The notes under the pieces are model-generated. The model did not search any database. It had not been told where the DNA came from and saw only the letters and a list, made by a program, of their open reading frames with translations. A program made the translations under genes and the position numbers. From Tyzzerella sp. (GTDB taxonomy: Bacteria; Bacillota; Clostridia; Lachnospirales; Lachnospiraceae), in contig JAFTWA010000047.1 in NCBI GenBank assembly GCA_017465565.1, forward strand, positions 62,001 through 126,000: a stretch of DNA of 64,000 nucleotides. The letters are read 5' to 3'. This document shows positions 5,770 to 32,255 of the stretch, one piece after another. Every line of letters begins with the position of its first letter. Positions within the stretch are counted from its first letter, which is position 1.

Positions 5770-6933
5770 CTAAAAAAATTTCCTATAAAATAGCTTTATA
5801 TCTAATTCATGATTCGTACAGTTCTCTTTCACGCAGAGTGCAGCTGCTTTTCCAGCTGCTTCCCCGGATAATGCTGCCACAGGAATGACACGGGTAAGCT
5901 CCCATCCGTCATCCTTCGCACTGATAATGCGTCCAGCCGCAAAAAGATTACCGACTTTGCGATTATATAGTGTCGTGTATGGTAGTTCAAAATGTCTGCC
6001 TCGCTTTCGGAAATCTCCAAAAGAGCCAACTGAATTCTCAATATGTACGCCATCTTCGTTGCCATCGAATTCCGTTTCCCCTATGATTCTTCGGATTTTA
6101 CGGAACTGTGGCATACTTGGAAGTGTCAGAATGTCTCTGCTTTCTTTGTCTTCTGTTTTGAGGCGTTCTAAAACCTTCTTTCCACCCCAGAGCATATATT
6201 CTGTCACATCATCTGCCGTCCTTACTCTGATGGTTGGTACGCCCTCTGGATGTCCATTTCCCGCCAAATCACTGCCAGTGCTTTTCCACTTTCTTCCTTT
6301 GCAGAAATTGCTTGTTTCGGCTAGTTTCTTTGCACCCTCGTAATTCAGTTCATGAGTCACATAGGTCAGATAGTTTTCTCCTAATTCTGTAGGAATTCCG
6401 GCACGTTCACAGATACAGGCATCGCCAGTGGCATCCACCACCATTTTAGCTGGAAAGTATTCTCTTCCGCCTACGGTTTCCACTAGGATACCTTTGCATA
6501 GACCGTCTTCCATATCTGGGTATGTAGCCAATGTATCCAGTCGGAGTGATACTCCGTTTTCCTCTAAATATTCAATTAAAGCAAGGGCAAATATATTCGG
6601 CGAAAAATGTGTGGCATAGCGGTCATGGTGCGATGGATTCTTTCCAGTTCCACCCCATTTCTCTGGAAGATTTTCAAAACCATATTTTACAGATAACTTA
6701 ATCAATTCTTCTGCAATGCCATGAATCATCTGCTTGCCTTCGCCATCGCAAAGAGGTTCATACCAGCTGATAAGACCAGCCGTTGCAAGGCCACCTAGAA
6801 TCACAGTCTTCTCCATAAGCAGAGTCTTCGCTCCGTTTCTGGATGCAGCCACAGCAGCTGCTACACCTGCAACACCACCGCCAACAACAATGACGTCATA
6901 TTCTGGCATTGTTTTTACTTCTATTTTATACAT
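5770..6933 (-). CDS. FAD-dependent oxidoreductase (last gene of locus B)
   Basis: 387 residues. The N-terminus carries the Rossmann dinucleotide motif G-x-G-x-x-G (GGGVAG, residues 18-23) followed by an acidic residue in LLMEK. A second FAD-binding region near the C-terminus reads NLFAAGRIISA. This layout fits the FAD_oxidored family (PF12831), in which related proteins oxidise hydroxy acids or sugars; the substrate here is not predictable. No signal peptide is present, so it is cytosolic. The ATG follows a GGAGG box at good spacing. It is 37 bp downstream of the glycyl radical enzyme and is the last gene of the 26.5-kb same-strand cluster. The residues joining the two FAD motifs are short compared with larger family members, but there is no sign of a break. 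Confidence 0.8.
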   Translation of the reverse strand: MYKIEVKTMPEYDVIVVGGGVAGVAAAVAASRNGAKTLLMEKTVILGGLATAGLISWYEPLCDGEGKQMIHGIAEELIKLSVKYGFENLPEKWGGTGKNPSHHDRYATHFSPNIFALALIEYLEENGVSLRLDTLATYPDMEDGLCKGILVETVGGREYFPAKMVVDATGDACICERAGIPTELGENYLTYVTHELNYEGAKKLAETSNFCKGRKWKSTGSDLAGNGHPEGVPTIRVRTADDVTEYMLWGGKKVLERLKTEDKESRDILTLPSMPQFRKIRRIIGETEFDGNEDGVHIENSVGSFGDFRKRGRHFELPYTTLYNRKVGNLFAAGRIISAKDDGWELTRVIPVAALSGEAAGKAAALCVKENCTNHELDIKLFYRKFF

Positions 6934-6970
6934 TTGTCAATCCTCCTACCAAACTATCGTTTAATATATT

Positions 6971-9184
6971 TTAAATGCCCTGTAAAAATCTGTCCACTAC
7001 CAATTGTCTAAATTGTGGAGAGAGGCTTGCAAAGTATGCTGTAAATCCTGTGACTCTGACAACGAGGTCTGGATGTAAGTCTGGATTTTCATTTGCTTCT
7101 AACAGTTTCTCACTGTCTAAGATATTAATGTTAATCAGAGTTCCGCCTTGATTGAAATGGGATTCGATGAGACGCAAAACGGTATCTACCCCTTTTTCGT
7201 CGGCTGCCAGTTTTGGGTCAAATTCAATCTGCAGTGGTGCTGTATTACCATAGCCACACTGTACAGATGCAATTCCATTTGCCTGGGCCGTAGGTGCCCC
7301 GTCAGTTCTAAAGTGCGGATTTGGATTGGCACCATGTGAGATTGGCGCTCCGCTTCTTCTGCCGTTTGGTGTTGCTCCAACCTTGCTTCCATACTCAATA
7401 GTTCTTGACCACGAAAACCATCCTGGAATAAATTGCCTTCCTTCTGGCATTGACTGCGCTTTTACAATGCGAACCCAGCTTTCTGTAAGGCGCTTTGCCC
7501 ATTCGTCCGAAATTGTTCCTCCCTGACAGTACTTTGGTGCAGAGTTTAAGATTAATCTAGTTCTTTCATCCGCAAAGTCACTATCTAAGGCTTCGTACAT
7601 TTCATCCCAAGTCAGAAGTTTTTCTTCCTCCACTCTCGTCTGCAGCGCCCCAAAGGAATCGGCTACCACAGCAAGACCTGCTCCGTCAATACCAACAGTG
7701 TATAGCTCTGCACATTGCGAAATGTCTTCACCACGTTCCAGTGTATTTTTCATCATCAGATTCATTACCAGCTCTGGAGTTACTTCCCAAGCATGGTCAA
7801 TATGTAAATTCACACCTTCTGCTGTCACTTCTACTGCCTTTTTCAAATGTTCTTCGTAGATTTCAAACAGTCTCTCTGTGCTTCGAATCTCTTCCTTACG
7901 TAAATCTTTTAACGCTTCATCCAACACCTTTGCAACGTTGACTTTTACTGTGTCGTTCATTGGGAATTCTTTTCCCGGAACACACATCCAGTTACAGCCA
8001 ACTGCAATACGTTCTCTTGCCGTTTTCTTGTCAATGCCATTTCGCATATAGCCCTCTGCCAATGCCTTATCGTTGCAGAATCTTGGCCAGCCGTTTTTAT
8101 TCTTTAACAGGTAATAAACAGCCTTTTTCATAAATTCTTTATCGCAATTTTCATGTACACGAACGGTAAGATTTGTAGCAATATTAATGGAATCTGCAGC
8201 CTCCAAGATGAGATAGGACAAGTGATTGGTCATATCCTTGTCATTTTCATCCACGCCTGAAATCTGATAATAATGTGGATCAATAAGAAGCAGATTTGCA
8301 ATGAGGAACTTCGCTTTCTCATCATCTAAAATGCCTGCTTTCACGTCTCTTTCATAGTATGGATATAAAAGTCCATCTAATTGGAATCCCGCTCCATCTC
8401 TTGTGTAAATACGGGAAGCACAATTAAAAAAGGCTGTCCACTGGCAGGCTTCCTGGAAAGTAGAAGGCGCATTGTATCTGATATTTTCACAGGTTTGCTT
8501 CATTTCTATCAAATTATTTCGAACAGCTCTATTCTCTTCTTTTGCAATCATAGTTTCCAACTTATCAATGTGTCTCTGCACAAAACTTATAATTGCCTCT
8601 ACAGTGCGCTCTTCTGCATCATAGAATTCTCTTTTATCAAGATTAATCGCACGGTATTTATCAATCTTTTTAAGAAGACCACCGAATCCCAATTCAAAAC
8701 CAATTCGATAATCACATGCAAAATGGGCATCCCCGTCAATACCTGTTGTAATATTGTATTTTTCCTGCAGTGGTTTTAAATGGTCATATGGAAAACGCTG
8801 CTCATCCCAGCGCTTGCTCCACTGATTTGTGGCACTCTTCATGAATTCCTGTGTCTTTGGATTCTTCTTTAACCAGTCTGGCATATAGTGAAGGTCGCCC
8901 CGGTAGTTTACAAGCATATCGCGCCATCTTCCACATAACATTTCATTTGGGTCAATATAAGGTTCATGCGCATCCAAAACACGACAGAAATTTTCACACA
9001 TACCGTCATATCCATAGAAGCTTCCATTAGTGCTGTTATACCATGGTTCTACAAAATATCCTTCTGATATTGGAACTGTACCAAAGTCATCCAAATCTGT
9101 ATAACCATTCTGTTTTCTTTTTGCCAAAGTATGCGCAATCTTCGTATCACGCATTGCCTTTAATCTACTCGCGTATGAATACAT
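6971..9184 (-). CDS. Glycyl radical enzyme, atypical active-site loop
   Basis: 737 residues, close to the 750-850 of pyruvate formate-lyase-like enzymes. The glycyl radical loop near the C-terminus reads RVTGFTAYF, with the radical glycine at residue 713. The central cysteine loop reads VGCNWMCVPG with the likely thiyl cysteine at residue 397. Known dehydratases, decarboxylases and sulfite lyases of the family usually have G-C-x-E at this place, and pyruvate formate-lyase has C-C; here the +2 residue is tryptophan and a second cysteine sits at 401. The reaction is therefore not assignable, but activation to a glycyl radical is well supported by the adjacent activase gene, whose 3' end overlaps the start of this gene by 20 nt. 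The enzyme would be cytosolic and oxygen-sensitive. No microcompartment shell genes or encapsulation peptide were seen. Confidence 0.9.
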   Translation of the reverse strand: MYSYASRLKAMRDTKIAHTLAKRKQNGYTDLDDFGTVPISEGYFVEPWYNSTNGSFYGYDGMCENFCRVLDAHEPYIDPNEMLCGRWRDMLVNYRGDLHYMPDWLKKNPKTQEFMKSATNQWSKRWDEQRFPYDHLKPLQEKYNITTGIDGDAHFACDYRIGFELGFGGLLKKIDKYRAINLDKREFYDAEERTVEAIISFVQRHIDKLETMIAKEENRAVRNNLIEMKQTCENIRYNAPSTFQEACQWTAFFNCASRIYTRDGAGFQLDGLLYPYYERDVKAGILDDEKAKFLIANLLLIDPHYYQISGVDENDKDMTNHLSYLILEAADSINIATNLTVRVHENCDKEFMKKAVYYLLKNKNGWPRFCNDKALAEGYMRNGIDKKTARERIAVGCNWMCVPGKEFPMNDTVKVNVAKVLDEALKDLRKEEIRSTERLFEIYEEHLKKAVEVTAEGVNLHIDHAWEVTPELVMNLMMKNTLERGEDISQCAELYTVGIDGAGLAVVADSFGALQTRVEEEKLLTWDEMYEALDSDFADERTRLILNSAPKYCQGGTISDEWAKRLTESWVRIVKAQSMPEGRQFIPGWFSWSRTIEYGSKVGATPNGRRSGAPISHGANPNPHFRTDGAPTAQANGIASVQCGYGNTAPLQIEFDPKLAADEKGVDTVLRLIESHFNQGGTLININILDSEKLLEANENPDLHPDLVVRVTGFTAYFASLSPQFRQLVVDRFLQGI

Positions 9185-9935
9185 ATTTTTCTAACTCCTC
9201 CATAAATTCTTTCGATGGAATGGTAAATCCATCTGGTTCTATTCCAAGAGCTTCTCTTTTTGCACCGCCTAGTGGATGATAAGGGAGAAGCTCATATTTT
9301 TCAACATTACTAAGTTCTTTTAAAAACTCCGAAATCTTGTCGATTTCCTGACAAATCCCAGGAATGACAGGCGTTCTCGCAATCACAGGAATATGTAATT
9401 CGCTCAACTGACAAAAATGCGTCTTGATTTTCTCATTGCTGACACCTGTATATTTTTTGTGTAACTCGTCATCCCAGATTTTTAAATCAGCCATGACTAA
9501 ATCCACTTTTCGGAATATTTCTGCATCAAAATAAATCAGGGACGTCTCTACTGCACAGTGAATGCCCTCTGCTTTACAGGCATCAATTAGTGCATTTAGA
9601 AACTCGCTCTGCATAAACGGTTCGCCTCCCGAAAAGGTGACGCCTCCGTCTGTTCCATAATAATCTTTATCGAGAAGTACCTCTTTCAGCACTTCCTCTA
9701 CACTCATTTCTTTTCCGCAGATAACCCTTGCACCAGAAAAACAGCCTTTATCGCATGAACCACAGCCAATGCATTTTTCTGGATAATACATAAGCTGTGG
9801 CGCTCTTTCTATGCATTCTGGATTATGGCACCATGCACAGTGGAGGGGACAGCCTTTCAAAAAGACGGTTGTCCGAATTCCCGGTCCATCATGCACGGAT
9901 GCTCTCTGGATATCTGCAACGATTCCACTAATCAC
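9165..9935 (-). CDS. Glycyl radical enzyme activating enzyme (radical SAM)
   Basis: 256 residues. The radical SAM cluster motif C-x3-C-x2-C is at C29, C33 and C36 inside the VHDGPGIRTTVFLKGCPLHC segment typical of GRE activases, and a GGEP SAM-binding motif follows. One ferredoxin-like motif, C-x2-C-x2-C-x3-C (C55, C58, C61, C65), is present. Most larger GRE activases have two such clusters and pyruvate formate-lyase activase has none, so a single cluster is unusual. The likely start is a GTG behind AGAGGAAA, overlapping the stop of the upstream oxidoreductase gene by 8 nt; the 3' end overlaps the GRE gene. This tight coupling indicates that it installs the radical on the neighbouring enzyme using S-adenosylmethionine. 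Confidence 0.93.
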   Translation of the reverse strand: MISGIVADIQRASVHDGPGIRTTVFLKGCPLHCAWCHNPECIERAPQLMYYPEKCIGCGSCDKGCFSGARVICGKEMSVEEVLKEVLLDKDYYGTDGGVTFSGGEPFMQSEFLNALIDACKAEGIHCAVETSLIYFDAEIFRKVDLVMADLKIWDDELHKKYTGVSNEKIKTHFCQLSELHIPVIARTPVIPGICQEIDKISEFLKELSNVEKYELLPYHPLGGAKREALGIEPDGFTIPSKEFMEELEKYVFIRE

Positions 9936-11028
9936 TTATTTTTTCCTCTTTTCCACTCTGTGAGCTCTTCATCAAAGCGTCCATAATCGCCATGATTTCT
10001 ACGTTTTTATCAAATGTCAGCATCTCATGAATTGGTTTGCCTTCATTGATATGAGCCGCGTAGTGCCATGGCATGTTTTTGTAGTCATCATTAAAAATAT
10101 GCTCTGGTACTGAAACTTCCTCTCCAAACATATCGTAAATCTTTACGTCTGGCTGGTTTTCAGCGCCGCCAATGCAAGTGATAACACCATCTGTACAAAG
10201 TATGGTTGGTCCCGATGGCATCATAACTCTTGGGGTTGTCCATGTTCCTTCAAGAACTGACATCCTGCCATCGTATTTTACGATTGCGGCAAAGTTATCT
10301 GCCGTATCACCAAATGGAGTGTTTAAGTTTGCTCCATATGCAAGCACGCTTTGTTCCCCTTCGCCCATAAGCCATTTTGTAAAGAATGCCCCATAACAAG
10401 AGATGTCAAGGAACACACCGCCACCAAGCTTTTCCTGGTGCCACCAGGTCTTACTTCTCTGCTCATCCGTCATCTCTTCTGCCTTTGCACTTACACCTCT
10501 GTGCTTTGCACCTTTTCCCAGAGGTCCTGTGTGGCCATTCATGTAGTGAAGCTTGATTGGCTCGCCGACAATCCGCTGTTCTAAAGCCTGTTGCATTTTG
10601 TGGATATATGGTCTCCACATAACAGGCCAGTTTACTACTGCTTCAATGCCGTATTTCTTGATGACAGCCTGCATCTTAAGGGCTTCTTCTAAATTCATGG
10701 CAATTGGCTTTTCAATCGAAACATGGATGCCGCGCTTTGCACACTCTTCCACAACTTCCAGCTTTTGTGCATTCTCTGTCAGAATAAATGCAATATCAGG
10801 CTTTATATCATCCAGCATCAATTTATAGTCATCATAGACATTTGTACAATAATTTTCTTTCACATTCTGCATATTCCAAACTGGCGTATAGCGGAGAGCC
10901 TCGATCTGCTCTGCCCGCGCTGAAGCATCAGCTACAGCCACTAATTCAAAGGATGGCTGTTCGCTGATATAAAGTGCCACTTCATTTACATGCATGTGTG
11001 AAAATCCAATAATTACTGCTCTAATCAT
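9928..11028 (-). CDS. Gfo/Idh/MocA family oxidoreductase (D, variant nucleotide loop)
   Basis: 366 residues. The N-terminal Rossmann domain begins AVIIGFSHMHVNE, so the usual G-x-G-x-x-G/A loop is replaced by G-F-S-H; the dinucleotide acid is still seen in AVADA. The signature E-K-P of the family is present (SIEKPIAM). The C-terminal half carries the mixed alpha/beta domain with a G-G-G-V-F-L-D motif. These enzymes oxidise or reduce sugars and polyols with NAD(P). The protein resembles the one at 16502-17581 (same altered loop, same W-W-x-x-x-x-L-G-G-G segment) more than the two in between. Its stop overlaps the activase start, so it is translated together with the radical enzyme genes. Confidence 0.88.
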   Translation of the reverse strand: MIRAVIIGFSHMHVNEVALYISEQPSFELVAVADASARAEQIEALRYTPVWNMQNVKENYCTNVYDDYKLMLDDIKPDIAFILTENAQKLEVVEECAKRGIHVSIEKPIAMNLEEALKMQAVIKKYGIEAVVNWPVMWRPYIHKMQQALEQRIVGEPIKLHYMNGHTGPLGKGAKHRGVSAKAEEMTDEQRSKTWWHQEKLGGGVFLDISCYGAFFTKWLMGEGEQSVLAYGANLNTPFGDTADNFAAIVKYDGRMSVLEGTWTTPRVMMPSGPTILCTDGVITCIGGAENQPDVKIYDMFGEEVSVPEHIFNDDYKNMPWHYAAHINEGKPIHEMLTFDKNVEIMAIMDALMKSSQSGKEEKISD

Positions 11029-11064: not shown

Positions 11065-12156
11065 TTAAAACGTTGTTTCCAAATCAAGGGTTTTGCCTGA
11101 TTCGATTGCTTCTGGAATCTTGCACATGATTTCAAGCACGTGTCTTGCATGCTCTGCTGATAAAACTGGTTCTGTATCGTTTTCAATAGCTTGTACTAAA
11201 TCAGCCAGACAACAGCATTGGCTTGTTAATTTCTTAGGTGGTTTAACACCTTTCTTTGGCTGCATCCATCCACGAATTCCTTTTTCTGGGTCGTCAACAA
11301 ACAATTCTGGAATTGGATTTGACATATAAGGTTCCGTAAAGCTAATTGTTCCTCTATCACCAAAGATTTCCATAAGTGGAGCCTTTGTAGCCTTAATTGA
11401 GAATCCTGTATCTACAACAGCCATCTTGTTGTCGCCGAAATCTAATGTGATAATATATTGGTCTGGTATCTTATCCGTCTTAATAATTTTTCCATCATAA
11501 GAACCCGAGCGAACCATTCTTGTTGGGCATGTAACTTTAGCCATACATCCAACCTTCTTTGCAGGTCCAAAAATAGATGTGACAATTTGAAGGCCATGAA
11601 CACCCATGTCGATTAACGCACCGGCGCCTTCTTCAAAGAACCATGTTGGGTCTGCATTTCTGTATTGGAAATATTCTGGTCCACCATGAGACATATTACA
11701 TTTAATATAATACGCATTGCCAATTGCACCATTTGCAATCCATTGTTTTGCAGTATTGATGTCATATCTCATTGGATGAATTGGTACACATACGAATTTT
11801 ACATTCATTTTCTTTGCCATTTCGATTTGCTCTGTTAACATTTCTACTGTTGGCGCTGCTGTTTTCTGAGAGATTAAATGCTTCCCTGCTTTTAATAGCT
11901 TCATGTTAATGTTGTGATGCTCTTGAATAATAGCTGCGTCAATGGCAATGTCGAAATCACATTTTTCGATCAAATCATCAACATTTGTGTAGTATTCAGG
12001 TACATTAAAGTCCTGACATGCCTTTTTTGCACTTTCTTCCACTGGGTCTACTACTGCTACGATGTCTGCATTTGCTTCTTTTCGGATATATGGAAAATAT
12101 TGAACTCGTGAGAAGAATCCACATCCGATGACTGCTACTTTCCATGTCTTTTTCAT
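11065..12156 (-). CDS. Gfo/Idh/MocA family oxidoreductase (C, E-K-P motif replaced)
   Basis: 363 residues. The Rossmann motif is canonical (VAVIGCGFF), with a following AVVDP acidic strand. At the place of the family E-K-P motif the sequence reads SQKTAAP, so the glutamate is replaced by glutamine and the proline by threonine; the lysine, which usually binds substrate and cofactor, is kept. The C-terminal domain has the IDMGVHG motif expected for the substrate-binding histidine region. The start at the ATG behind AAAGGAGAG gives MKKTWKVAV; an upstream in-frame start would add 16 residues without support. It sits 31 bp after the next upstream oxidoreductase gene. The changed motif suggests altered substrate or a cofactor-recycling reaction; this is inference. 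Confidence 0.87.
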   Translation of the reverse strand: MKKTWKVAVIGCGFFSRVQYFPYIRKEANADIVAVVDPVEESAKKACQDFNVPEYYTNVDDLIEKCDFDIAIDAAIIQEHHNINMKLLKAGKHLISQKTAAPTVEMLTEQIEMAKKMNVKFVCVPIHPMRYDINTAKQWIANGAIGNAYYIKCNMSHGGPEYFQYRNADPTWFFEEGAGALIDMGVHGLQIVTSIFGPAKKVGCMAKVTCPTRMVRSGSYDGKIIKTDKIPDQYIITLDFGDNKMAVVDTGFSIKATKAPLMEIFGDRGTISFTEPYMSNPIPELFVDDPEKGIRGWMQPKKGVKPPKKLTSQCCCLADLVQAIENDTEPVLSAEHARHVLEIMCKIPEAIESGKTLDLETTF

Positions 12157-12187
12157 TGTTTTCTCTCCTTTGGATTTAAAAATTATA

Positions 12188-13267
12188 TTAAAGAAGTTCC
12201 TCAATCATAACTTCTCGGTTTTCAGCAGCTGACAAATATGCTGCTTCTAAAATAGCGGTTGTGTTGATGGTTTCCTGAGGCTTTACAAAAGCTTCCGCTT
12301 TTCCACTCAATACTTCTGCTACATTTTTTATCAAACAGAAATGTCCGTAGAACGGTTCATCTTCGAAGCCACTTGGTCCTACTTCCAAATCAAATATATC
12401 CTCTGCACCTGCGTAAATCTTTTTGTTCTCCATATCTATGCCACAAGCTTTACCTGCAAGTACAATATTGTTTTCTTCTTTTAGGTTCGCTGCCCAAGAA
12501 ATCTTAAAGCTAAGCGACGCACCATTTTCAAAGGTAACCTGTCCCTGTGCAAAAGATTCCACATTCATCTCATCTGGATTGAAATTAGATGTGTCCACAT
12601 TATCTTTAAATGCACCAGAGCTTTTTGCCGAACCAATTTCATCTGCATGAATCTTGCTCATGCTTGCAATGACGCTGCGAGGCTTTGGATTTCCCATAAG
12701 CCATAAAACGCTGTCAAAACCGTGAACACCAATATCAATCAGTGCTCCGCCGCCACTATATTCTTTGAGGTGGAATTTGCCCCATGTTGGAATACCTCTG
12801 CGGCGAATTCTAGAAAGTTCTGCATAATATACATCTCCAACTTTCCCCTCATCAACCAATTTCTTGGCAGCAAGTCTTTCAGGCAGGAAACGGATGCTCT
12901 GGCATGCCATCAGCATCTTCCCCTGCTTTTCTGCATAGGCAAACATTTCACATGCATCTGCATAAGAAAATGCAAGAGGTTTTTCACAGAGAACGTTTGC
13001 ACCATAAGAAAGTGCCAACATCGCAAACTCCTTATGCATCATATTTGGTGTACAGATAGACACTACGTCTGGCTTCATTTCCTTCAGCATTTCTTCTGCA
13101 TTAGAATAATAATTTGGAATATCATGTTCCTCTGCAACCTTCTTTGCTGATGCTTCAAACGCGTCACATACTGCAACAATTTCAAAATCGTCCGACCAGT
13201 GTTTATATGCCGGAATATGTGCGCTCTGTGCAATCATTCCACATCCGATAATACATACTTTGTTCAT
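12188..13267 (-). CDS. Gfo/Idh/MocA family oxidoreductase (B, canonical)
   Basis: 359 residues. The N-terminus has the standard G-C-G-M-I-A dinucleotide loop (VCIIGCGMIAQSAH) and AVCDA acidic strand. The family E-K-P is intact (NVLCEKPLAF). The C-terminal alpha/beta domain carries GGGALIDIGVHGFDSV, where the aspartate and histidine are usual catalytic or substrate-binding residues. It should be a cytosolic NAD(P)-dependent sugar or inositol-type dehydrogenase. It is the only one of the four family members in this cluster with all standard motifs. It follows the HAD phosphatase gene by 29 bp in the same operon. Confidence 0.9.
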   Translation of the reverse strand: MNKVCIIGCGMIAQSAHIPAYKHWSDDFEIVAVCDAFEASAKKVAEEHDIPNYYSNAEEMLKEMKPDVVSICTPNMMHKEFAMLALSYGANVLCEKPLAFSYADACEMFAYAEKQGKMLMACQSIRFLPERLAAKKLVDEGKVGDVYYAELSRIRRRGIPTWGKFHLKEYSGGGALIDIGVHGFDSVLWLMGNPKPRSVIASMSKIHADEIGSAKSSGAFKDNVDTSNFNPDEMNVESFAQGQVTFENGASLSFKISWAANLKEENNIVLAGKACGIDMENKKIYAGAEDIFDLEVGPSGFEDEPFYGHFCLIKNVAEVLSGKAEAFVKPQETINTTAILEAAYLSAAENREVMIEELL

Positions 13268-14708: not shown

Positions 14709-14720
14709 CACGTTTCCTCC

Positions 14721-16487: not shown

Positions 16488-16501
16488 GTCCATATCCTCC
16501 G

Positions 16502-22948: not shown

Positions 22949-22978
22949 ATACAATCCCTTTCCGTAGTTGCATCCACA

Positions 22979-22998: not shown

Positions 22999-23011
22999 CA
23001 CAATAGATCAT

Positions 23012-26000
23012 TTACTCTGTCTCTACAGTCCAGAGATATTTCTTAAAGTCATAAAGTACAGGCTGGCCGTTATTTAAATCCCATTTTCCTGTTGTGTTGG
23101 AAGTGCTATAGAAATCAAGTAGCAAGTCTTTCTTATCTTCATCAGTTAATCCTGTCAGTTGTTCCATGGTTCTGCCTGCATAACTGTTTATCGTGTCTAC
23201 ATCTTTTGTAGTAACGTTATTAATAGTCAAACTAGCCGTATTCCCTTTCGCAGTTGAAACTTTCACTGCTTGGTTGTACCAAATCGTTTCATCTGCATCG
23301 CCTATACATCCATATACATTTGTCAGTGTTGCAGTGGCATTCGTGATTAATCCAATGATAGAAGCAGTATTTCCACTTGCCCCTGTTCCTTGCAAAATAC
23401 TCTTGCCCACATTCAAACTATCTTCTATGATTAATTCTGCACCGTTTGCAAGAACACCACAAAGACCACCAATCTGCTGTTGTTTATTAGCTGTAGCCAC
23501 AATATCCGCACTATTTAAGCAATGAGAAATTTGAACTATAATATTTCCGGCAGAAGTTGTGTCATTAATTCCACCCACAATTCCTGCTGTTTTTTGTTGT
23601 CCACTTGTTATTGTGCCATCAAACCAACAGTTCTTAATTGTATAATCATCTTCGTCGCACTCTGTAGAACCGATAATTCCACCTACAATTCCACCATTGT
23701 ATTGGCTATTACTGTAAATGCTTGCATTACTATAAATTGTGTTCAATGTTCCATGAAGCACACCCGTTACACTTCCTAAGTAAGCATCATAATTCTTAGT
23801 ATAAGGATAAGAATTATTAAAATAACTTTCCTTAATCTCTAAATTTTTCACTACTCCGCCTGCACCTACGGTTCCAAAAAGACCTACTCTCCACTGCTTA
23901 TCAGTTGACACATAAATACCACTGATCACATGACCATCGCCATCGAAAGTTCCTCTAAATTCTTTTCTCTCTTCTGCATCTTCCGTCATGTCATAATATC
24001 CAATTGGCGTCCATACATTGAGAGGCTTTTTCGCCGCCATCTGTTCAGCCGTTTTATTGTTTAAAGTGATATCGGCACCCAGTTTAATTGTCCAACCGCT
24101 AAAATCATTCTCTTTTGAAAGTTCTGACAATCCATAAAGTTCTGCCGCACTACTGATTGTAACTGTTTTATCTTCTTTATGTGTTTCATACCAACTCGTA
24201 TCTGCTGCAACAGGCGTTGCTTCTGCTCTCTGATAGCCCGCAAATTCACAAAGCACCGGTGTTGAATTCGAATCAAGCACAACCCAATATCCAGCTTTAT
24301 TTACTGTACTGTCATAGAATTCGAGATTTAAGTTCTTCGCATTGTCTCCTGTCAGTTCGGTAGCAGTTTTTTCTATATAACTGTCTATCGTATTTAGATT
24401 ATCGGGACTAGCCTGCTTTTTACCACCAGTTACTACAACTTCATAATCTTCAACTTTAGCTTCTGCCTGATAGATTTTTGCAATTGCTCTACTCCATTCA
24501 CTATTCACATATACACTGGTTAGTTCAGCATAAGTTCCGTCTTCTACCGAGCCTTGTAGCAATCCAATCACAGAGCCTGAAGTACTACTTGACGCACCAC
24601 TTGCTATAGTAAGTGTTCCTGTATATAAGCAATTCGATAGATTCAATTTTGCTTTGTACAACACGGCTCCAATGAGTCCACCATTTTGTGATGTGCTAGT
24701 TCCTGCAAATATGTTTGTTGCGCCACTGCTTAAACAGTTTGAAATAGTTACATTCATTTCATGTGCATTTTCGTTTACATCTTTACCATTAATACCACCA
24801 ACAAGACCTGCTGCCTTTTGCGAGTTAATATTCAGTTCTCCGACAAACCAACAGTTAATAATCGTGTAATCTCCGCCGTCTCCTGAGCCACGCATTGTAC
24901 CTACAAGTCCTCCTGTATACTGACTTGTACTGTAGAGTTTCGCATCACTCTTAACAGTATCCAAAGTTCCATAAAGCAATCCTGTTACACTTCCTGTAAA
25001 TGCACCTTCTTTTGCTCCGGCAGTATTTTTGAAATAACTTTCTGTAATCTTCAAGTCTTGTACCGTTCCACCTTTTCCTATAGTTCCAAACAGACCAAGA
25101 TATTGCTGTGCACTATCACTGGTAGTAACAGTTGCATAAAGACCACTGATTGTATGACTGTCACCATCAAATGTTCCTAAAAATTGTTTTCTATCGTTTG
25201 CGTCATCAGCATCAAAATCGTTATCTCCAATCGGAACCCATTCATTCAATCCCGTTAATTGGTTGTTATCAATCTTTGAATACAGACCTTCATTTAAAGT
25301 AATATCTGCACCTAAAATAATGGTCTCATTCTTGAAGTCATTTGTTGCAGAAAGTTCTGACAATCCATATAAATCTGCCACTGTGTAGATTGTATATTCA
25401 TTATCTGTGTTCTTTGCATCATACCAAACAGTTCTTGCATCTGTGAGTGCTGTGAGATCCATTGCAATCACATTACCTTTAAAGCTTCTAAGAATAGGCG
25501 TACCATCTGTCACAATCCAATAACCAGTTGAGTCAGCCTCATTGAGACAGAAATCTAAATTCATGTTTAGGTATGCATTCTTACCTGTCAATTCGTTCAT
25601 GGTCTTTTCCGCATCCTCATGACCTGTAACTGTTGACTTTGAATTCTTAAGAGCCTGATTATACCATTTGCCTTCTTCTGCATAGCCATATGCATTTGTT
25701 AATTTTGCAGTTGCACTTGATACCAAGCCAATAACTGAACCGCTGTTTCCACTTTCTTTAATACCCTCGCCCAGCTTCAACTCGAGTTCACCTGCGTTCA
25801 AACTATCTTCCATAACTAATTCTGCTTTGTTAGCTACGAGACCACAGAGACCACCATATTGCTGCACATTCGTTTGTTTTTGACCTGTTAGGCAGATTGT
25901 ACCGCTGTTTAAACAGTGTGAAATAGTTGCTTCAAAGGCCTTACCAAACGCTTTGGCATTGATACCACCTACGATTCCTGCTACTTTTTGTGTACTGCTT

Positions 26001-29000
26001 GTTACCTTTCCGGCAAACCATGAGTTTGTAACGGTGTAATCTTCAATTTCATCATTATCAACACATTCGTCTGAACCTAAAATTGCACCTACAAGACCAC
26101 CTGTGTATTGGCTTGAGCTCTCAATAATGGCTGTACTCTTAACCGTATCAATCTTTCCATGAAGCAGACCTGCGATACTTCCTGTATAAGCACCATCAGT
26201 AAGACCGCTGATATTCTTGAAATAGCTTTCTTCAATTGCTAAGTTTTGTACTGTTCCGCCAGCACCTACCGTTCCAAATAAACCAAGGTATTGTGCTTCA
26301 TTTGTTACGGCATAAATACCTTTAATCGCAAAATTCTGACCGTCAAAGGTTCCTTTGAATTCTTCTCCTGTTCCATCTGCGTAGTGACCAATTGGTGTCC
26401 ATACATTTGCAGGGGCCGTTTCTTTCATTTGCTCTACAGTCTTATTATTCAATGTAATTGTTTGACCAAGTTTGATCGTCCATCCACTGAAATCATAGTC
26501 TCTTGAAAGTTCTGCCAATCCGTAAAGTTCTTCTGCTTTATTGATTGTAAATTCTTTATCTTCCTTATGTTCTTCATACCAGCTTGTATCTGGTTTTACT
26601 ACAACCGACATATCAAGGCTGTCTTTTCCTACAAAGCTAGCAAGTACAGGAGTTGCTTTTTCATTCTGAATTACCCAGAACTTTTCAAAATTCAGTTTTG
26701 TCAAGCGACGCCCTGAATATCCTGCAAGGCTAGTCATATCAGATACAGATGTTTCGTTTTCTGTTAAAGTTGCTCCTTTTGAGTAGCCAACCATTTTCGA
26801 AGCAAATTCTTTTGCGCCGTATACTTTATTTAAATCAGCAACACTGATACCACCTGTATCCTTTGCAACGGCTCCGATTGCGGTTCCGATTTTCTCTACC
26901 TCACCTGTAGTTTTAATCGTTCCTGTATTTAAACTGTCGTTCAAGTATAAAACACCTAGCTGTTGTACTACACCAACGAAACCACCAATCTGGCTGGCAC
27001 CAGCTTCACCACCACTGATATATAGGTCCCCAGTATTGAGACAGTGTTCCATCGTCACAGACATTTCTTTCTTATTGCCATAAACACCACCAAGAATACC
27101 ACCAGTGTTTGTTGTAGAATGGAGTTCTCCAGCAAACCAACAGTTTGTAATCTTGCTGTCACCATCGTCGGTAACCATACCTACTAATCCGCCAGTCATT
27201 CTTGAGCTGTTTACTACAATCGCATCACTATATACAGAATCAATTGTCATATCAAGTGCACGACCAGCAAGACTTCCCACACAGCCTCTTGCACTGCTTT
27301 CTCTAGTACCTTCAAAATAACTGTTCGTAATTGTCAAATTGCTTACAGTAGCACCGCGATAAATTTCTCCGAAAAGACCAATATATGATTCATCTACTTC
27401 TCCCTTAGTATAAATACCACTAATGCTATAACCTTGACCATCAAAGATACCTTTAAAATGCGATTCTGTTCCTTGGTAGCCAATTGGCATCCACTCATTT
27501 TTAACTGGTGGATTCTTTGCCCAGTCAGCTGCACTTCCCTTATTGATTGTAATGTTATAACCAAGCTTTATGGTCTCTCCTTCAAAATCATTGGTTTTTG
27601 AAAGTAATGTAAATCCATAAAGGTCGCTGGCATTATTGATTGTATTACCATTCTTATACCAGCTTGTGTTTGCCCGGATAACACCAGTCATATCAACCTT
27701 GTCGCTTCCTGCAAACTTTGAAAGTACAGGAGTTGCATCTACTTTTTCAGTTACCCAGTAATTTTCAAAATCTAATTGTGTATAGCGATATCCATCATAT
27801 CCCTCAAAGTATTCTCTATCTAATATGAAGATTTCCGTCTCACTCTTTTCTGCATTACAATAAGCCACAGTTTTTTTCGAAAATTCCTTTACGCCATATA
27901 CTTGATTTAATGAAGCAGTACTGATTCCACCGCTATCTTTGGCTACAGCACCGATGGCATTTCCGATTTTACTAACTTTACCTGTAGTGACAATTGTTCC
28001 TGCATTCAAGCTATCTGATAACTTCAAAACACCTTTTTGTTGCACTACACCAACGAAACCACCAATCTGAGTGGCACCATCGCTGATATGGAATGTACCT
28101 GTGTTTAGGCAGTTTTCTATAGTCACAGACATTTTCTTTTTGTTACCGTAAATGCTTCCAATAATTCCACCACTATTGCTAGCTGAATGAAGTTCTCCAG
28201 CAAACCAGCTGTTTGAAATCTTGCTGTTTCCATCATCGGTAATCATACCTACAAGACCACCCGTCATTTTTGCAGTGTTTGCTAAGATTGCATCACTGTA
28301 TACGGAATCCATTGTCATATCAAGCGCTCTACCTGCAATACTACCTACACATCCGCGCTTGCTGCTATCTCTGTTACCTTCGATATAACTGTTTGTAAGT
28401 TTTAAATTCTTTACAGTCGCTCCACGGTACACTTCGCCAAAAAGACCAAGGTATTCTTCGTCCGCATTGCCTTTTACATAGATGCCGCTGATGGTATGTC
28501 CCTGACCATCAAAGGTTCCTTTAAAATGTTCTCCTACACGTGAAGCCTGATAACCCATAGGAGTCCATGTATTTGCTGGCGGATTCTTTGCCCAGTCGGC
28601 TGCATTTCCTTGATTTACGGCAATGTCAGCACCAAGCTTAATGGTTTTTCCTTCGAAACTAAGAGTCTTCGTTAACTGTGCAAATCCATAAAGCTGTGCA
28701 ACCGTAGAAATTGTGAACTCTTTCTTATTCTCATCATACCAGCTTACATCCACCATTCTTGCAATTCCTTTTACACTTGGTCTGCTATCTGCAAAGCTTG
28801 CAAGAATCGGAGTATCATTTTTTCTGATTGCCCAATAGTTATCAAAATCAAGTGTCGTCCACTGATAACCACCAAAGCCTTTTATCGAAGCAACATCCAC
28901 ATTTGCACAGTGTCCTGTCCATGCTCCGTTAAAATAGCCAATCGTTTTTGTCGAAAATTCTTTTATACCATAAGCACTGCTGGCGATTCCGTGGCTGACA

Positions 29001-30931
29001 CCACCTTTATCTTCTGCCACAGCGCCCATAACAGAACCATACTTGGTTACTGTATCATTCGCCTCAATTGTTCCTGTATTCAAGCTGTCTGTCAGATTGA
29101 GTGTCGCACCCTGCTGAACAACACCACAGAGTCCACCAATCTGAGTTGAATCGTCGCTGATAATCAGTTTTCCTGTATTAAGACAGTGCTGCATGGTTGC
29201 TGTAATATTTTTTCTATTACCATACACGCCGCCTAAAATACCACCGGAGTTGGTTGTTGCATAAAGCTGTCCATCATACCAGCTGTTTGTAATTAAGTTT
29301 TCACCATCGCCAGTTATCATACCGACAAGTCCACCCGTGTATTTTGCTGAGTTAACTACAATAGCATCACTGTACACGGTATCAATTGTTCCGATATTTC
29401 TGCCTGCAATACTTCCTACAATTCCCTGATATGCAATATCTCTAGTGCCTTCAAAATAACTATTCGTTAGTTTCAAGTTCTTCAAAGTACCTGTACGGTA
29501 TATTTCTCCAAAGAGACCAAGATATTGTTCATTTTCATCTCCTTTTACATAGATACCGCTGATGGTATATCCTTGACCATCAAAGGTTCCTGTAAAGTGC
29601 TGTCCTGTATTTGTGCCATGCCATCCAATTGGTGACCAATCGTATATTGGTGGATTTTCTCTCCAGTCATTGGCATCGCCTTCGTTAACTGTAATATCAG
29701 CACCTAACTTGATTGTTTTCCCATTGAAAGTTTCTGAAATAGACAAAAATGAAAATCCATATAACTGTTCTGCAGTCGTGATTACAAATTCACTCTTGCT
29801 TGAGTCATACCAGCTCATATCAACCTTCTTTGTAATACCTGCTAAACTTGGCAATTCTTTTGCAAAGCTCATAAGAACTGGAGTATCATCCAACTTTACT
29901 GCCCAATAATTATCGAAATCCAATGTCGTCCACTGATAACCGCCAAAGCCTGTAAGCAGTTCTTCTTTCTTGGAAATAACATTACCATTTAATTTTCCCG
30001 TTGCCGTGCCAATGGTTTCCTTTTTAATTTCTTTTACTGTGTATGTATCTGCGATAAAAGCAGATGAGGAGTCATCAACCTCACCAATCACAGACCCAAT
30101 ACTTACTGCTTCTTCACCATAAGTAACGATTCCCGAACTCATACTGTCATCTAGTCGTAAGAATCCACCTTTCGCCACACTTCCTAAAATACCACCAACT
30201 CGATTTCCCTCACTGACAATATCACCTGTATTAAGACTATGCTCAATCAAATTCATGGCATCTGCCACTTCAATCGAACCCACAAGACCACCTATGTAGG
30301 AGCTTTCTGTTCCTCTCATGGTTATGGTTCCATCAAACCAGCAATTGCTAACCTTATTTTCTGCTTTTACAGTCAACTTACCAATTAAACCGCCAAAATA
30401 TTGACCGCTTCCTTCAATGATTGCATCTGAATACACGGACTCAAGTGTTCCTCCACCAAATCCGATAATACTTCCCGTTCCTTTATCATTACCATTTTTA
30501 AAGTAACTGTTTACCAACTGGAAGTCGCGGATTACACTGCTCTTCTTGGTATCTGTAAATAATCCCATACTAGTTACGATACCATCTCCGTAAATACCGC
30601 TAATGGAATGCCCCTGTCCATCAAAGGTTCCTGCAAATCCACTAATCGGATGCCATCTGCGTCTAGGAGCTTTTTCTACCCACTCCTCGGCATCCCCTTC
30701 GTTTACTACAATGTCAGCACCAAGCTTAATGGTCTGACCTTTGAAATCATAAGTTTCAGAAAGTTCTGCCAGGTCATATAACTCGTCTGCCGTCGTAATT
30801 GTGAATTCTGTTGCATTCACGTCATACCAGCTAGCCTTGGCATTTTTCATCCACCAGAGTCCGCCAACCACTGCCGCCAAAGCAAGCAGTACAGTAAAGA
30901 CTAGAACTATGATTTTCTTTTCTTTTTTCAT
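23012..30931 (-). CDS. Giant GLUG-repeat surface protein, 2639 residues
   Basis: The N-terminus (MKKEKKIIVLVFTVLLALAA) is a signal anchor with one membrane segment and no lipobox. Seven long units follow, starting at S-W-Y or V-W-Y motifs near residues 34, 372, 728, 1088, 1449, 1833 and 2244. Each unit has an FTIxTAxxLYGLAxLS strand, a TIKLGADI strand, the FDGQGHxISGIY motif, a GLFG motif and several GG-(L/I)-V/C-G GLUG motifs (PF07581), ending with a W-x-x-L-D-F-x-N-Y-W segment. Unit 1 differs from the rest (GLFTDT instead of GLFGE) and matches unit 1 of the protein at 1-3059. A long beta-solenoid outside the cell is expected. No LPxTG or other wall anchor is seen at the C-terminus. It is the second gene of locus B, 16 bp after the MBL gene. 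Binding of a polymeric substrate is inference. Confidence 0.9.
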   Translation of the reverse strand: MKKEKKIIVLVFTVLLALAAVVGGLWWMKNAKASWYDVNATEFTITTADELYDLAELSETYDFKGQTIKLGADIVVNEGDAEEWVEKAPRRRWHPISGFAGTFDGQGHSISGIYGDGIVTSMGLFTDTKKSSVIRDFQLVNSYFKNGNDKGTGSIIGFGGGTLESVYSDAIIEGSGQYFGGLIGKLTVKAENKVSNCWFDGTITMRGTESSYIGGLVGSIEVADAMNLIEHSLNTGDIVSEGNRVGGILGSVAKGGFLRLDDSMSSGIVTYGEEAVSIGSVIGEVDDSSSAFIADTYTVKEIKKETIGTATGKLNGNVISKKEELLTGFGGYQWTTLDFDNYWAVKLDDTPVLMSFAKELPSLAGITKKVDMSWYDSSKSEFVITTAEQLYGFSFLSISETFNGKTIKLGADITVNEGDANDWRENPPIYDWSPIGWHGTNTGQHFTGTFDGQGYTISGIYVKGDENEQYLGLFGEIYRTGTLKNLKLTNSYFEGTRDIAYQGIVGSIAGRNIGTIDTVYSDAIVVNSAKYTGGLVGMITGDGENLITNSWYDGQLYATTNSGGILGGVYGNRKNITATMQHCLNTGKLIISDDSTQIGGLCGVVQQGATLNLTDSLNTGTIEANDTVTKYGSVMGAVAEDKGGVSHGIASSAYGIKEFSTKTIGYFNGAWTGHCANVDVASIKGFGGYQWTTLDFDNYWAIRKNDTPILASFADSRPSVKGIARMVDVSWYDENKKEFTISTVAQLYGFAQLTKTLSFEGKTIKLGADIAVNQGNAADWAKNPPANTWTPMGYQASRVGEHFKGTFDGQGHTISGIYVKGNADEEYLGLFGEVYRGATVKNLKLTNSYIEGNRDSSKRGCVGSIAGRALDMTMDSVYSDAILANTAKMTGGLVGMITDDGNSKISNSWFAGELHSASNSGGIIGSIYGNKKKMSVTIENCLNTGTFHISDGATQIGGFVGVVQQKGVLKLSDSLNAGTIVTTGKVSKIGNAIGAVAKDSGGISTASLNQVYGVKEFSKKTVAYCNAEKSETEIFILDREYFEGYDGYRYTQLDFENYWVTEKVDATPVLSKFAGSDKVDMTGVIRANTSWYKNGNTINNASDLYGFTLLSKTNDFEGETIKLGYNITINKGSAADWAKNPPVKNEWMPIGYQGTESHFKGIFDGQGYSISGIYTKGEVDESYIGLFGEIYRGATVSNLTITNSYFEGTRESSARGCVGSLAGRALDMTIDSVYSDAIVVNSSRMTGGLVGMVTDDGDSKITNCWFAGELHSTTNTGGILGGVYGNKKEMSVTMEHCLNTGDLYISGGEAGASQIGGFVGVVQQLGVLYLNDSLNTGTIKTTGEVEKIGTAIGAVAKDTGGISVADLNKVYGAKEFASKMVGYSKGATLTENETSVSDMTSLAGYSGRRLTKLNFEKFWVIQNEKATPVLASFVGKDSLDMSVVVKPDTSWYEEHKEDKEFTINKAEELYGLAELSRDYDFSGWTIKLGQTITLNNKTVEQMKETAPANVWTPIGHYADGTGEEFKGTFDGQNFAIKGIYAVTNEAQYLGLFGTVGAGGTVQNLAIEESYFKNISGLTDGAYTGSIAGLLHGKIDTVKSTAIIESSSQYTGGLVGAILGSDECVDNDEIEDYTVTNSWFAGKVTSSTQKVAGIVGGINAKAFGKAFEATISHCLNSGTICLTGQKQTNVQQYGGLCGLVANKAELVMEDSLNAGELELKLGEGIKESGNSGSVIGLVSSATAKLTNAYGYAEEGKWYNQALKNSKSTVTGHEDAEKTMNELTGKNAYLNMNLDFCLNEADSTGYWIVTDGTPILRSFKGNVIAMDLTALTDARTVWYDAKNTDNEYTIYTVADLYGLSELSATNDFKNETIILGADITLNEGLYSKIDNNQLTGLNEWVPIGDNDFDADDANDRKQFLGTFDGDSHTISGLYATVTTSDSAQQYLGLFGTIGKGGTVQDLKITESYFKNTAGAKEGAFTGSVTGLLYGTLDTVKSDAKLYSTSQYTGGLVGTMRGSGDGGDYTIINCWFVGELNINSQKAAGLVGGINGKDVNENAHEMNVTISNCLSSGATNIFAGTSTSQNGGLIGAVLYKAKLNLSNCLYTGTLTIASGASSSTSGSVIGLLQGSVEDGTYAELTSVYVNSEWSRAIAKIYQAEAKVEDYEVVVTGGKKQASPDNLNTIDSYIEKTATELTGDNAKNLNLEFYDSTVNKAGYWVVLDSNSTPVLCEFAGYQRAEATPVAADTSWYETHKEDKTVTISSAAELYGLSELSKENDFSGWTIKLGADITLNNKTAEQMAAKKPLNVWTPIGYYDMTEDAEERKEFRGTFDGDGHVISGIYVSTDKQWRVGLFGTVGAGGVVKNLEIKESYFNNSYPYTKNYDAYLGSVTGVLHGTLNTIYSNASIYSNSQYNGGIVGGIIGSTECDEDDYTIKNCWFDGTITSGQQKTAGIVGGINDTTSAGNIIVQISHCLNSADIVATANKQQQIGGLCGVLANGAELIIEDSLNVGKSILQGTGASGNTASIIGLITNATATLTNVYGCIGDADETIWYNQAVKVSTAKGNTASLTINNVTTKDVDTINSYAGRTMEQLTGLTDEDKKDLLLDFYSTSNTTGKWDLNNGQPVLYDFKKYLWTVETE

Positions 30932-30947
30932 CCTTTTTCCTCCCTTT

Positions 30948-32255
30948 TTAATAAATATCTTTTGTATGATAAATTAACTTTGCTCTATCATCTTCGTATG
31001 TAAATCCCACGGTCTCATCACCGCCACAGTACCATTCGCTGCACCATTTTTTTGCCAAATCCGAATGCGCTGTCATTTCTTCATTCTTGACAAGACCACC
31101 TGAAGTCTGAAGCATCAGCATCACCTGCGCATTGGCATATTCATAGACAGTAGCATTATTATTAAAATTGTGATGCGGTTGCTGCAGAATATCGCACTTT
31201 AATGTTGCTTCTGAAAAATGATTGCACAAGGACTCTTCCGCCCGCTCCGTAATGTCTCCTGTTACAAGTATTTTCATTCCTGCCCGTGTCTCAACCATAA
31301 TCACCGTGCTTGTCGCATTATAATCACGGGTTGGAAATGTACCATCGCCATCTGCCAGGTCTTCATGTGTATACAAAACAGTCATTGTATTATCCGCTAT
31401 ACGGATTACGTCGCCTGTATGAACCTTTATCTCCTGGCACATTGGAAAATGTTCCTGAAGAAAATCCGCGATATACTGAAACATCAAATCCCTTGCCTGA
31501 TTCGTAGTTTCAGGATTTGGCAGGTTACAAATGACTCGTTCTAAGTTGTACTTTCTTGGATTCCTGCTTAGAAGCGCCATAAGTCCCATCACATGATCAT
31601 TGTGTGTGTGGGTAATATACCACGCAGAAATGGTAAGCACTTCCTCTTCGCTTTTCCCAGTAATCTTGTGTAAAAGCTTTGAAAACCGTTCTTGATCCTC
31701 CTGTTTCATCTGGCACTCTGCACCACCATCCACAATGATAAGACTATTATCTGCACATTTGATAACCAGGCATTCGCCATTATTGACAAAACCACTCGTG
31801 TTTTCTTCCAGCGCGATATTCATACCATTAGGATCCATTTTCAAGCCAAACATATAAATTTCCGATTGCTCGTCATGTTTGGGCTCATATATATAAGAGA
31901 TTTGTTCTGGACTTGTGCCTTCATTTTCATCCAGAACCACCAATGCTTTCTTCTCATTCTCGTAATAATTTGCACATACTCTTTTATCGTTTTGTACCAA
32001 ACGATAAAAATAGTTGTTTTCGATAGAATGGTGTTTTTCCTCTTGATATCCGTTTTCTTTTAAAATATCCACATAATATAAAAATTCCTCCAAGGTTGTA
32101 TCTGTTATGCTTTGCATCATACAGTCCTTGCTGTTGTTATTTTCATATAACTTGGCGTATGTACCACAATTGTATAGTTCTGTTGACATCTGATTATTTC
32201 CTTGATAGGTTGGTAATTTTTTTAATAACCATCCTTCTCGGTAATAATGCCTCAT
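30948..32255 (-). CDS. Cytosolic metallo-beta-lactamase-fold protein (first gene of locus B)
   Basis: 435 residues. It begins MRHYYREGWLLKK and is collinear with residues about 165-600 of the MBL lipoprotein at 21146-22948, lacking the signal peptide and first domain. The MBL motif is T-H-T-H-N-D-H (H216, H218, D220, H221), and the late PHHNF motif and the IIVDGG strand are also present, so metal binding seems intact. The start was set at the ATG behind the very strong GGGAGGGAGG site; an in-frame upstream ATG at 32387 would add a 44-residue basic extension but lacks a good site. No membrane segment is seen, so it is cytosolic. It is first in the operon, divergent from the AraC gene. Function is unknown; a ComEC-like phosphodiesterase or lactonase activity is possible. 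Confidence 0.82.
   Translation of the reverse strand: MRHYYREGWLLKKLPTYQGNNQMSTELYNCGTYAKLYENNNSKDCMMQSITDTTLEEFLYYVDILKENGYQEEKHHSIENNYFYRLVQNDKRVCANYYENEKKALVVLDENEGTSPEQISYIYEPKHDEQSEIYMFGLKMDPNGMNIALEENTSGFVNNGECLVIKCADNSLIIVDGGAECQMKQEDQERFSKLLHKITGKSEEEVLTISAWYITHTHNDHVMGLMALLSRNPRKYNLERVICNLPNPETTNQARDLMFQYIADFLQEHFPMCQEIKVHTGDVIRIADNTMTVLYTHEDLADGDGTFPTRDYNATSTVIMVETRAGMKILVTGDITERAEESLCNHFSEATLKCDILQQPHHNFNNNATVYEYANAQVMLMLQTSGGLVKNEEMTAHSDLAKKWCSEWYCGGDETVGFTYEDDRAKLIYHTKDIY

Follow-up and report, generated by a model that had tools for sequence, protein, structure and literature searches.

A composite gene cluster of Tyzzerella sp. with an apparently undescribed Cys-x-Trp type of glycyl radical enzyme linked to Gfo/Idh/MocA oxidoreductases

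The window analysed in the present work is a stretch of 64,000 nucleotides from Tyzzerella sp. (assembly GCA_017465565.1, contig JAFTWA010000047.1, positions 62,001 to 126,000 of the forward strand). It contains a cluster of 17 consecutive minus-strand open reading frames (ORFs), from 32387 to 5770, in which genes for capture and import, sugar-acid enzymes, Gfo/Idh/MocA oxidoreductases (Gfo) and a glycyl radical enzyme (GRE) with its activase are found together. A first-pass annotation had described seventeen tightly packed genes on one strand, which our analyses confirm (neighbouring genes are separated by 0 to 37 bp or overlap by 8 to 25 bp); position 32255, where it placed the end of the cluster, is in fact an ATG within the first gene, MBL2 (Met45), the ORF of which opens at 32387. 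The genes of the cluster and the signals flanking it are as follows.

32548..33393, plus strand: AraC-family regulator, divergent to the cluster (Pfam HTH_18, 1.6e-21)
32473..32501, minus strand: promoter-like site upstream of the first gene (TTGAGT-17-TATAAT, 10 of 12; a consensus match only)
30948..32387, minus strand: MBL2, metallo-beta-lactamase (MBL)-fold protein (PF00753, 31.0 bits against a cut-off of 22.7)
23012..30931, minus strand: giant repeat protein of 2639 amino acids (aa) (translation, motifs, hydropathy, sub-threshold PF07581 stretches)
21146..23011, minus strand: MBL1, MBL-fold protein (PF00753, 21.0 bits, just under the cut-off of 22.7)
20131..21117, minus strand: sugar-type ABC permease 1 (PF00528, BPD_transp_1, 51.6 bits)
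19242..20129, minus strand: sugar-type ABC permease 2 (PF00528, BPD_transp_1, 28.1 bits)
17610..19241, minus strand: solute-binding lipoprotein (by position; relatives of 61% and 45% identity in two other importer sets)
16502..17581, minus strand: Gfo1, Gfo/Idh/MocA oxidoreductase (PF01408, 48.5 bits)
15900..16526, minus strand: DUF218 protein (PF02698, 92.4 bits)
14721..15881, minus strand: MR/MLE-type aldonate dehydratase, MLE (PF13378; passes the galactonate dehydratase model NF010624 with 367.9 against 311 bits, a predicted activity)
13896..14711, minus strand: SDR dehydrogenase (PF13561, 159.9 bits)
13297..13911, minus strand: HAD-type hydrolase (PF13419, 84.9 bits)
12188..13267, minus strand: Gfo2 (PF01408, 110.5 bits)
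11065..12204, minus strand: Gfo3 (PF01408, 67.4 bits)
9928..11028, minus strand: Gfo4 (PF01408, 64.5 bits), of the Gfo types the one with the closest linkage to the GRE
9165..9935, minus strand: GRE activase, radical SAM (TIGR02494, 267.4 against 174.35 bits), adjoining the GRE
6971..9184, minus strand: CxW-type GRE (PF02901, PFL-like, 329.7 bits; PF01228, Gly_radical, 51.9 bits)
5770..6933, minus strand: FAD_oxidored protein (PF12831, 186.2 bits)
4791..4830, no strand assigned: hairpin between A/T-rich runs (inverted repeat I2 with 80% complementarity; its minus-strand tail is T-rich)

The GRE/activase pair reported by the first-pass annotation is borne out by Pfam, which identifies PFL-like (pyruvate formate-lyase, PFL) and Gly_radical domains in the GRE and a radical SAM activase, the CX3CX2C motif of which reads CPLHCAWC in the translation. 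The key residues of the GRE are Cys397 (radical), Trp399 and Gly713; the loop around the cysteine reads GCNWMCVPG, and the glycyl loop (RVTGF at 710-714) agrees with RVxG[YF]. The Cys-x-Glu (CXE) motif of GRE eliminases is absent from the window GRE, which reads Cys-Asn-Trp (hence Cys-x-Trp, CxW), a peculiarity that the first-pass annotation had not mentioned. Conservation of CXE across GRE eliminases is described in PMC7077986, together with the inactivity of the E436Q variant of HypD. A Trp at Cys+2 is shared by 50/50 aligned members of the clade, and Glu occupies this position in 9/9 CxE GREs, a sample from the same and other Clostridia genomes which does not comprise all of their GREs. Cys397 is kept in 49/49 core rows, in L008, and in 9/9 outgroups, and the glycyl loop is RVTGFTAYF in 29/30 aligned rows and RVTGYSAFF in the remaining row. 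When 38 fetched family loci, several of them overlapping with the 50, were scanned for the motif, the loop could be read in 37 and was CxW in every one (L066 gave no motif); the GRE of L114 was excluded from both the tree and the 50-row count. The clade received a support of 1.0 for 46 sequences in a FastTree phylogeny rooted by choice on the PFL of the same genome. The CxW GRE is apparently an undescribed kind of radical enzyme that forms a distinct clade. Two weak GRE relatives, L010 and L008 (genomes G054 and G024), have GCQW loops, L010 lying outside the aligned set, so the Cys-x-Trp type may extend beyond the CxW clade; the loops of L012 and L015-L017 are GCVE.

None of the 12 NCBIfam GRE models listed reached its cut-off for the window GRE, and the GRE equivalogs all fell well short of theirs. 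The best of them was that of the PFL2/glycerol dehydratase subfamily (TIGR01774, 282.8 against 678.2 bits), and the HypD model gave 219.8 against 1100 bits. The best-scoring solved structures are glycerol dehydratase (1r8w best), HypD and, third, PflD. In the alignment to glycerol dehydratase, Glu435, which we take to be the base of that enzyme (the roles of its other residues being likewise assumed), falls on Trp399 and His281 on Gly264, and the window GRE retains His164, Asp447 and Tyr339, as His154, Asp411 and Tyr306. All 49 core sequences share His154, Asp411, Glu471, Asp500 and His617.

The neighbourhoods of CxW GREs were compared in 28 loci of relatives (L018-L045, from named genome contigs) and in loci from further genomes; the fragment L045 was unused and L102 was left out (no focal GRE by ORF picking), which gives 45/46 loci. 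Short contigs lower the neighbour counts, and the window MBL genes lie just beyond 10 kb from the GRE. Within 10 kb of the GRE, the 45 loci contain an activase in 40, any Gfo in 35 (two or more in 29), an AraC gene in 24, AP_endonuc_2 in 14, a FAD protein in 9, a permease in 8, a cupin in 4 and another GRE in 4; MLE and SDR are each found in 2, and the solute-binding protein, HAD and DUF218 each in 1. Among the 31 close loci, defined by a GRE at least 60% identical to that of the window, 28 extend 3 kb or more upstream of the GRE, and in these 28 a same-strand Gfo (26), Gfo4 (25), activase (24) or FAD gene (7) is present within 3 kb of the GRE, and AP_endonuc_2 within 10 kb in 13. The divergence of the GRE and that of Gfo4 are correlated over 21 loci (Spearman 0.72, reached by 0/2000 permutations), a correlation that is not decisive because shared ancestry alone could produce it. 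The GRE family occurs in 27/391 genomes of the class at E 1e-200 or better and in 9/392 genomes of the order. The MBL2 type is present in 2/391 class genomes at E 1e-30 or better, and among the 391 the two are combined, at these thresholds, only in the window's own genome. The first-pass annotation had proposed a search for neighbourhoods joining the GRE to the giant protein and MBL genes; the giant protein is found at most 10 kb from the GRE in 1/45 loci, namely the window itself, and MBL in 0/45. It had also stated that a GRE and a GLUG gene never occurring together in relatives would speak against its proposal, and these counts come close to that situation.

Several further genes related to sugars or their oxidation accompany CxW GREs. 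In L110, a distant locus, AP_endonuc_2 and Gfo/Idh/MocA domains are fused in one protein (12457-14346) beside the GRE, as identified by Pfam, and the same fusion type is seen near a CxW GRE at L108:7332-9218, by BLAST and length only. Another distant locus, L130, has two AP_endonuc_2-type genes (one over and one under the cut-off), two Gfo genes and importer permeases. Other sugar genes near the GRE are a GH38 mannosidase (L100), a phosphomannose isomerase-type gene (L107), a GH130-type gene (L044) and GH88 (L031). The GH88 gene of L031 directly follows the CxW GRE (12277-17748), together with a second-type GRE with its own activase and an FGGY kinase; this second GRE has the loop GCQE and the glycyl loop RIHGTFVNF, and the same type is encoded in the window genome at C3:53868-55637. 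In L024 (13231-18825) and L036 (11921-17954), the GRE block is followed by QueG-like 4Fe-4S proteins (identified by eye, with a weak Fer4_9 match), a protein with no Pfam match and a DUF5696-type protein, Pfam having been run on L036 only. L030, L037, L041 and L115 have a CxW GRE and Gfo genes, but the sequence read there contains no activase gene, which may lie elsewhere.

Our analyses of the same genome indicate that the parts of the cluster are separable. A second cluster lies directly beyond the window cluster on the same contig (C17), without MBL2, Gfo1 and the whole GRE block. Its gene order is an AraC gene, a GDPD-family gene, a giant protein of 2919 aa, MBL, two permeases, solute-binding protein, DUF218, MLE, SDR and HAD, and in place of the GRE block it is followed on the contig by a further AraC-like gene, a zinc-ADH-like gene (both by eye) and a Gfo-like gene; this neighbouring repeat comprises window 1-4795 and C17:47700-66000 (L095, L096). 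The identities between the two clusters are 42% for the giant protein, 55% for MBL, 81% and 76% for the permeases, 61% for the solute-binding protein, 73% for DUF218, 97% for both MLE and SDR, and 93% for HAD. Their DNA aligns with 85.8% identity over 3194 bp and the alignment breaks at gene ends. Gfo1 is an insert between DUF218 and the solute-binding protein gene, the alignment skipping 16487 to 17577 where the sister stretch is continuous. A recent gene conversion of MLE and SDR was considered and set aside, since 97% protein identity with 85.8% DNA identity points to constraint rather than to very recent copying.

A third set, on contig C18, has a giant protein, MBL, permeases and solute-binding protein ahead of other enzymes. 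The GRE block recurs separately on contig C30, with an AraC gene, a 428-aa Gfo, an AP_endonuc_2-type protein, Gfo4 (89% identity to the window), activase (83%), GRE (90%) and Gfo2 (89%) and with no surface block, a different importer set being located ~7 kb further along. The AP_endonuc_2-type protein of C30 belongs to the same BLAST cluster as its homologue in L030, which was assigned by Pfam. Gfo2 is upstream of the GRE in the window and downstream on C30, and in the window Gfo3 stands between Gfo2 and Gfo4. This 3.2-Mb genome yielded 15 Gfo domains, 7 of which are within its two GRE blocks. The window cluster is a composite, a local assembly of separable blocks and not a conserved unit. A single conserved pathway of GRE and surface protein is not supported in view of the GRE-free repeat next door, the similar set on C18 and the 1/45 co-occurrence. 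Also considered and rejected was a mobile unit bounded by two related nucleases, as the gene at 33490-34335 has no significant similarity to the Rpn-type gene at 4829-5707; a comparison with viral contigs revealed no virus link.

The gene layout fits co-transcription. The promoter-like site at 32501-32473 (minus strand) is beside the divergent AraC gene, a relative of which (51% identity) at 3881-4795 heads the neighbouring repeat cluster. The first-pass annotation had reported no internal terminator with a T run; in our counts, the five minus-strand terminator-like sites in the cluster are all intragenic and terminator numbers are not above those in shuffled sequences. Promoter-like sites on both strands number 47 in 19000-33600, against 44.7 (sd 7.6) in shuffles. 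The hairpin at 4791-4830 is a possible end of the cluster transcript and of the convergent AraC gene, and a transcript ending there could take in, beyond the 17 genes, the Rpn-type PD-(D/E)XK nuclease gene at 4829-5707, which is on the same strand 62 bp below the FAD gene. Rfam gave 0 matches in window 3000-34000. On the other side of the cluster, the 3' end of the AraC gene is marked by a strong inverted repeat of 20 pairs (33402-33449), likely a two-way terminator. A glycan region at 34676-61069 encodes two GH3 enzymes, two of GH2 type, a calcineurin-like phosphoesterase, a DUF5696 protein, two more pairs of permeases and a protein of 961 aa that has solute-binding domains and weak CBM_6 domains.

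The functional labels of the first-pass annotation are for the most part backed by Pfam (viz. four Gfo/Idh/MocA proteins, the MR/MLE, or enolase-type, dehydratase, SDR, HAD, DUF218 and the FAD oxidoreductase). Gfo1, Gfo2 and Gfo4 have an EKP motif and Gfo3 has QKT, a type of motif that we presume to be characteristic of the Gfo/Idh/MocA family. Among its two MBL hydrolases, MBL2 is over the Pfam cut-off and MBL1 just under it. MBL2 (61% to MBL1) has no strongly hydrophobic N-terminus by hydropathy, and the N-terminus of MBL1 is lipoprotein-like in sequence and hydropathy, with a hydrophobic stretch followed by Cys51. The importer is supported by its two BPD_transp_1 permeases and not by the solute-binding protein, for which Pfam gives nothing even at E 10. 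The GLUG label of the surface protein does not stand for the window protein, which has no Pfam Glug match (best PF07581 stretch 14.2 against a cut-off of 20.5 bits). This protein has an N-terminal hydrophobic segment and about seven long degenerate repeats of weak GLUG character, with seven G[TIE]FDG[QND] motifs spaced 347-408 residues apart and 30 G[GS][LIVF]xG. Its paralogue on C18 passes the PF07581 cut-off only by summing stretches, and in a control of this search matches were found in 9/14 control genomes, in 2 of them over the cut-off. A DgpC-type partner (we take DgpC to be a member of the AP_endonuc_2 family) and shell genes had been called absent, and indeed Pfam detects neither AP_endonuc_2 (PF01261) nor any microcompartment shell family in the 17 genes, of which two are without any hit; a microcompartment reading is not supported.

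A dedicated route for an uncommon glycoside or sugar acid, as suggested in the first-pass annotation, is still the best broad reading, although one pathway uniting giant protein and GRE is unsupported beyond this locus. On the observed gene content, modularity, Trp-bearing clade and Gfo linkage, we tentatively favor, at a little short of probable, a composite sugar operon in which the CxW GRE acts on sugar substrates primed by Gfo oxidation. In such an operon the first block (MBL, giant repeat protein, MBL and ABC importer) would serve in capture and import, the second (SDR, MLE dehydratase, HAD and DUF218) would provide sugar-acid enzymes, and the third, with Gfo oxidoreductases, activase and GRE and here the FAD oxidoreductase, would be a conserved radical block. 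The substrate, step order and reaction of the GRE route we infer as follows. The Gfo enzymes would convert a hydroxyl on the ring of an uncommon sugar or glycoside into a ketone by oxidation, and the activase would place a radical on Gly713, from where it would move to Cys397. Cys397 would then abstract a hydrogen from the keto-sugar, which would be stacked on Trp399. The C-O bond could be cleaved without a Glu base, the carbonyl having already activated the substrate, and a different Gfo would re-reduce the product, which in this genome may enter the second block. The action of a CxW GRE on a ketone-activated sugar, with Trp399 as a stacking platform, is suggested by the Gfo, AP_endonuc_2 and other sugar-related partners and by the precedent of levoglucosan, and is the least certain step. 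Entry of the product into a ketodeoxyaldonate route is thinly supported by the neighbours in L019. That CxW GREs in general form a new catalytic class acting on Gfo-made keto-sugars, with a route of oxidation, radical cleavage and reduction in anaerobic gut Clostridia, is a possibility that we regard as rather doubtful. The GRE substrate may be fodder-derived or a hindgut glycan, as 14/28 relatives come from ruminant gut sites (two from one metagenome-assembled genome; the share among all records was not controlled for).

A number of observations weigh against the Gfo-primed route. Within 10 kb, a same-strand Gfo is not found in 2/28 close loci (L031 and L038) and is found in only 6/14 distant loci (BLAST criterion); the activase is missing from the stretch read in 4/28 close loci, and Pfam identifies no AP_endonuc_2 protein in the window cluster. 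The second and third blocks are linked in the window and in the roe-deer locus L019 only (MLE and SDR, 2/45 loci), and in L019 an opposite-strand AraC gene separates MLE (88%) and SDR (77%), ~5 kb away, from the GRE. In 5500-20000 there are 52 promoter-like sites on both strands, where shuffles give 34.6 (sd 5.8), and one such site, 17609-17580 (minus strand), is within the gap between the solute-binding protein and Gfo1 genes. Together these make internal promoters possible and speak against a single transcript. The excess in 5500-20000 is also in keeping with a chance or recent junction, in which the GRE block, perhaps with its own promoter, was joined to a complete uptake-plus-aldonate operon and would act on an unrelated substrate. 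Such a junction is further favored by the separate occurrence of the first two blocks and of the third in the same genome, by alignment breaks at gene ends and by the clean insertion of Gfo1. However, tight gaps and overlaps continue across the junctions, and MLE and SDR are near the GRE in L019 as well, albeit behind the AraC gene; we consider this account somewhat unlikely.

The Trp at Cys+2 by itself would leave dehydratase chemistry with another base open, and such chemistry is conceivable because His154, Asp411, Glu471, Asp500 and His617 are invariant. The CxW GRE could then be an ordinary eliminase (a sugar alcohol, aldonate or diol dehydratase) with a substitute for the Glu of CXE, the Gfo enzymes merely supplying its substrate or reoxidizing its product. 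This would suit its closest structures (glycerol dehydratase, HypD and PflD), its best NCBIfam model and the invariant acids and histidines at hand, but CXE is absent from 50/50 aligned members, and the conservation of this motif and the inactivity of HypD E436Q, as described in the parts of PMC7077986 available, argue against it; an ordinary eliminase, too, appears somewhat unlikely to us. It is improbable that the GRE works as PFL or the arylacetate decarboxylases do, as a C-C lyase or a decarboxylase with a uronic or keto acid as substrate. The GH88 gene adjoining the GRE in L031 (GH88 enzymes presumably being unsaturated uronyl hydrolases) and the likeness of the second block to sugar-acid chemistry would accord with it, but the adjacent Cys-Cys pair of PFL is missing (GCNW), the second loop cysteine, Cys401, is not conserved among relatives, and neither the PFL model nor that of the arylacetate decarboxylases comes near its cut-off (pyr_form_ly_1, 72.3 against 994.2 bits). 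A PFL-like reading is likewise not supported. If the reading of CxW GREs as a new catalytic class is true, their route would break sugar or glycoside bonds that are out of reach for hydrolases and CXE eliminases. Should the CxW clade prove to be a true functional class, a catalytic residue held to be conserved in GRE eliminases would be replaced in a group found in 27/391 sampled class genomes, and this group would gain a function. The genome with two copies and the tight Gfo4-activase-GRE unit offer a small, testable gene set.

Among the matches listed from open-licence papers, as far as their text was available, no Gfo-linked or CxW GRE is described, which is weak evidence of novelty because it concerns only open-licence papers and the matches listed; the available part of a work on the GRE superfamily has no mention of 'moca' or 'sugar' (PMC11528403). 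In the C-glycoside cleavage system DgpA/B/C, a Gfo enzyme is likewise the first oxidant, according to the part of the source available (PMC11239390), but the window cluster differs from this system in lacking AP_endonuc_2 among its 17 genes and in having a GRE. The levoglucosan route of Bacillus smithii (LgdA, LgdB1, LgdB2 and LgdC), in the portions of its description available, employs Gfo and sugar phosphate isomerase-type proteins in sequence to break a C-O bond via oxidation, elimination, hydration and reduction, with an ABC importer nearby (PMC7676230). It is a precedent for such steps, but it is described there without a GRE, and the four window Gfo proteins score 32-83 bits against 650 for the levoglucosan dehydrogenase model. 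Among sugar-linked GREs, PflD, the third best PDB match, differs in reading GCVE in the alignment, and the window cluster has no kinase or phosphotransferase system gene; PflD and YbiW of E. coli are reportedly anhydrosugar-phosphate ring-opening enzymes. The GRE eliminases (viz. glycerol/diol dehydratase, HypD, CutC and IslA, with the PFL2-3 subfamily TIGR01774) have Cys-x-Glu where the window GRE has Cys-x-Trp, and the TIGR01774 and HypD cut-offs are missed, but they share with it the fold family, the radical cysteine, the glycyl loop and the adjoining activase.

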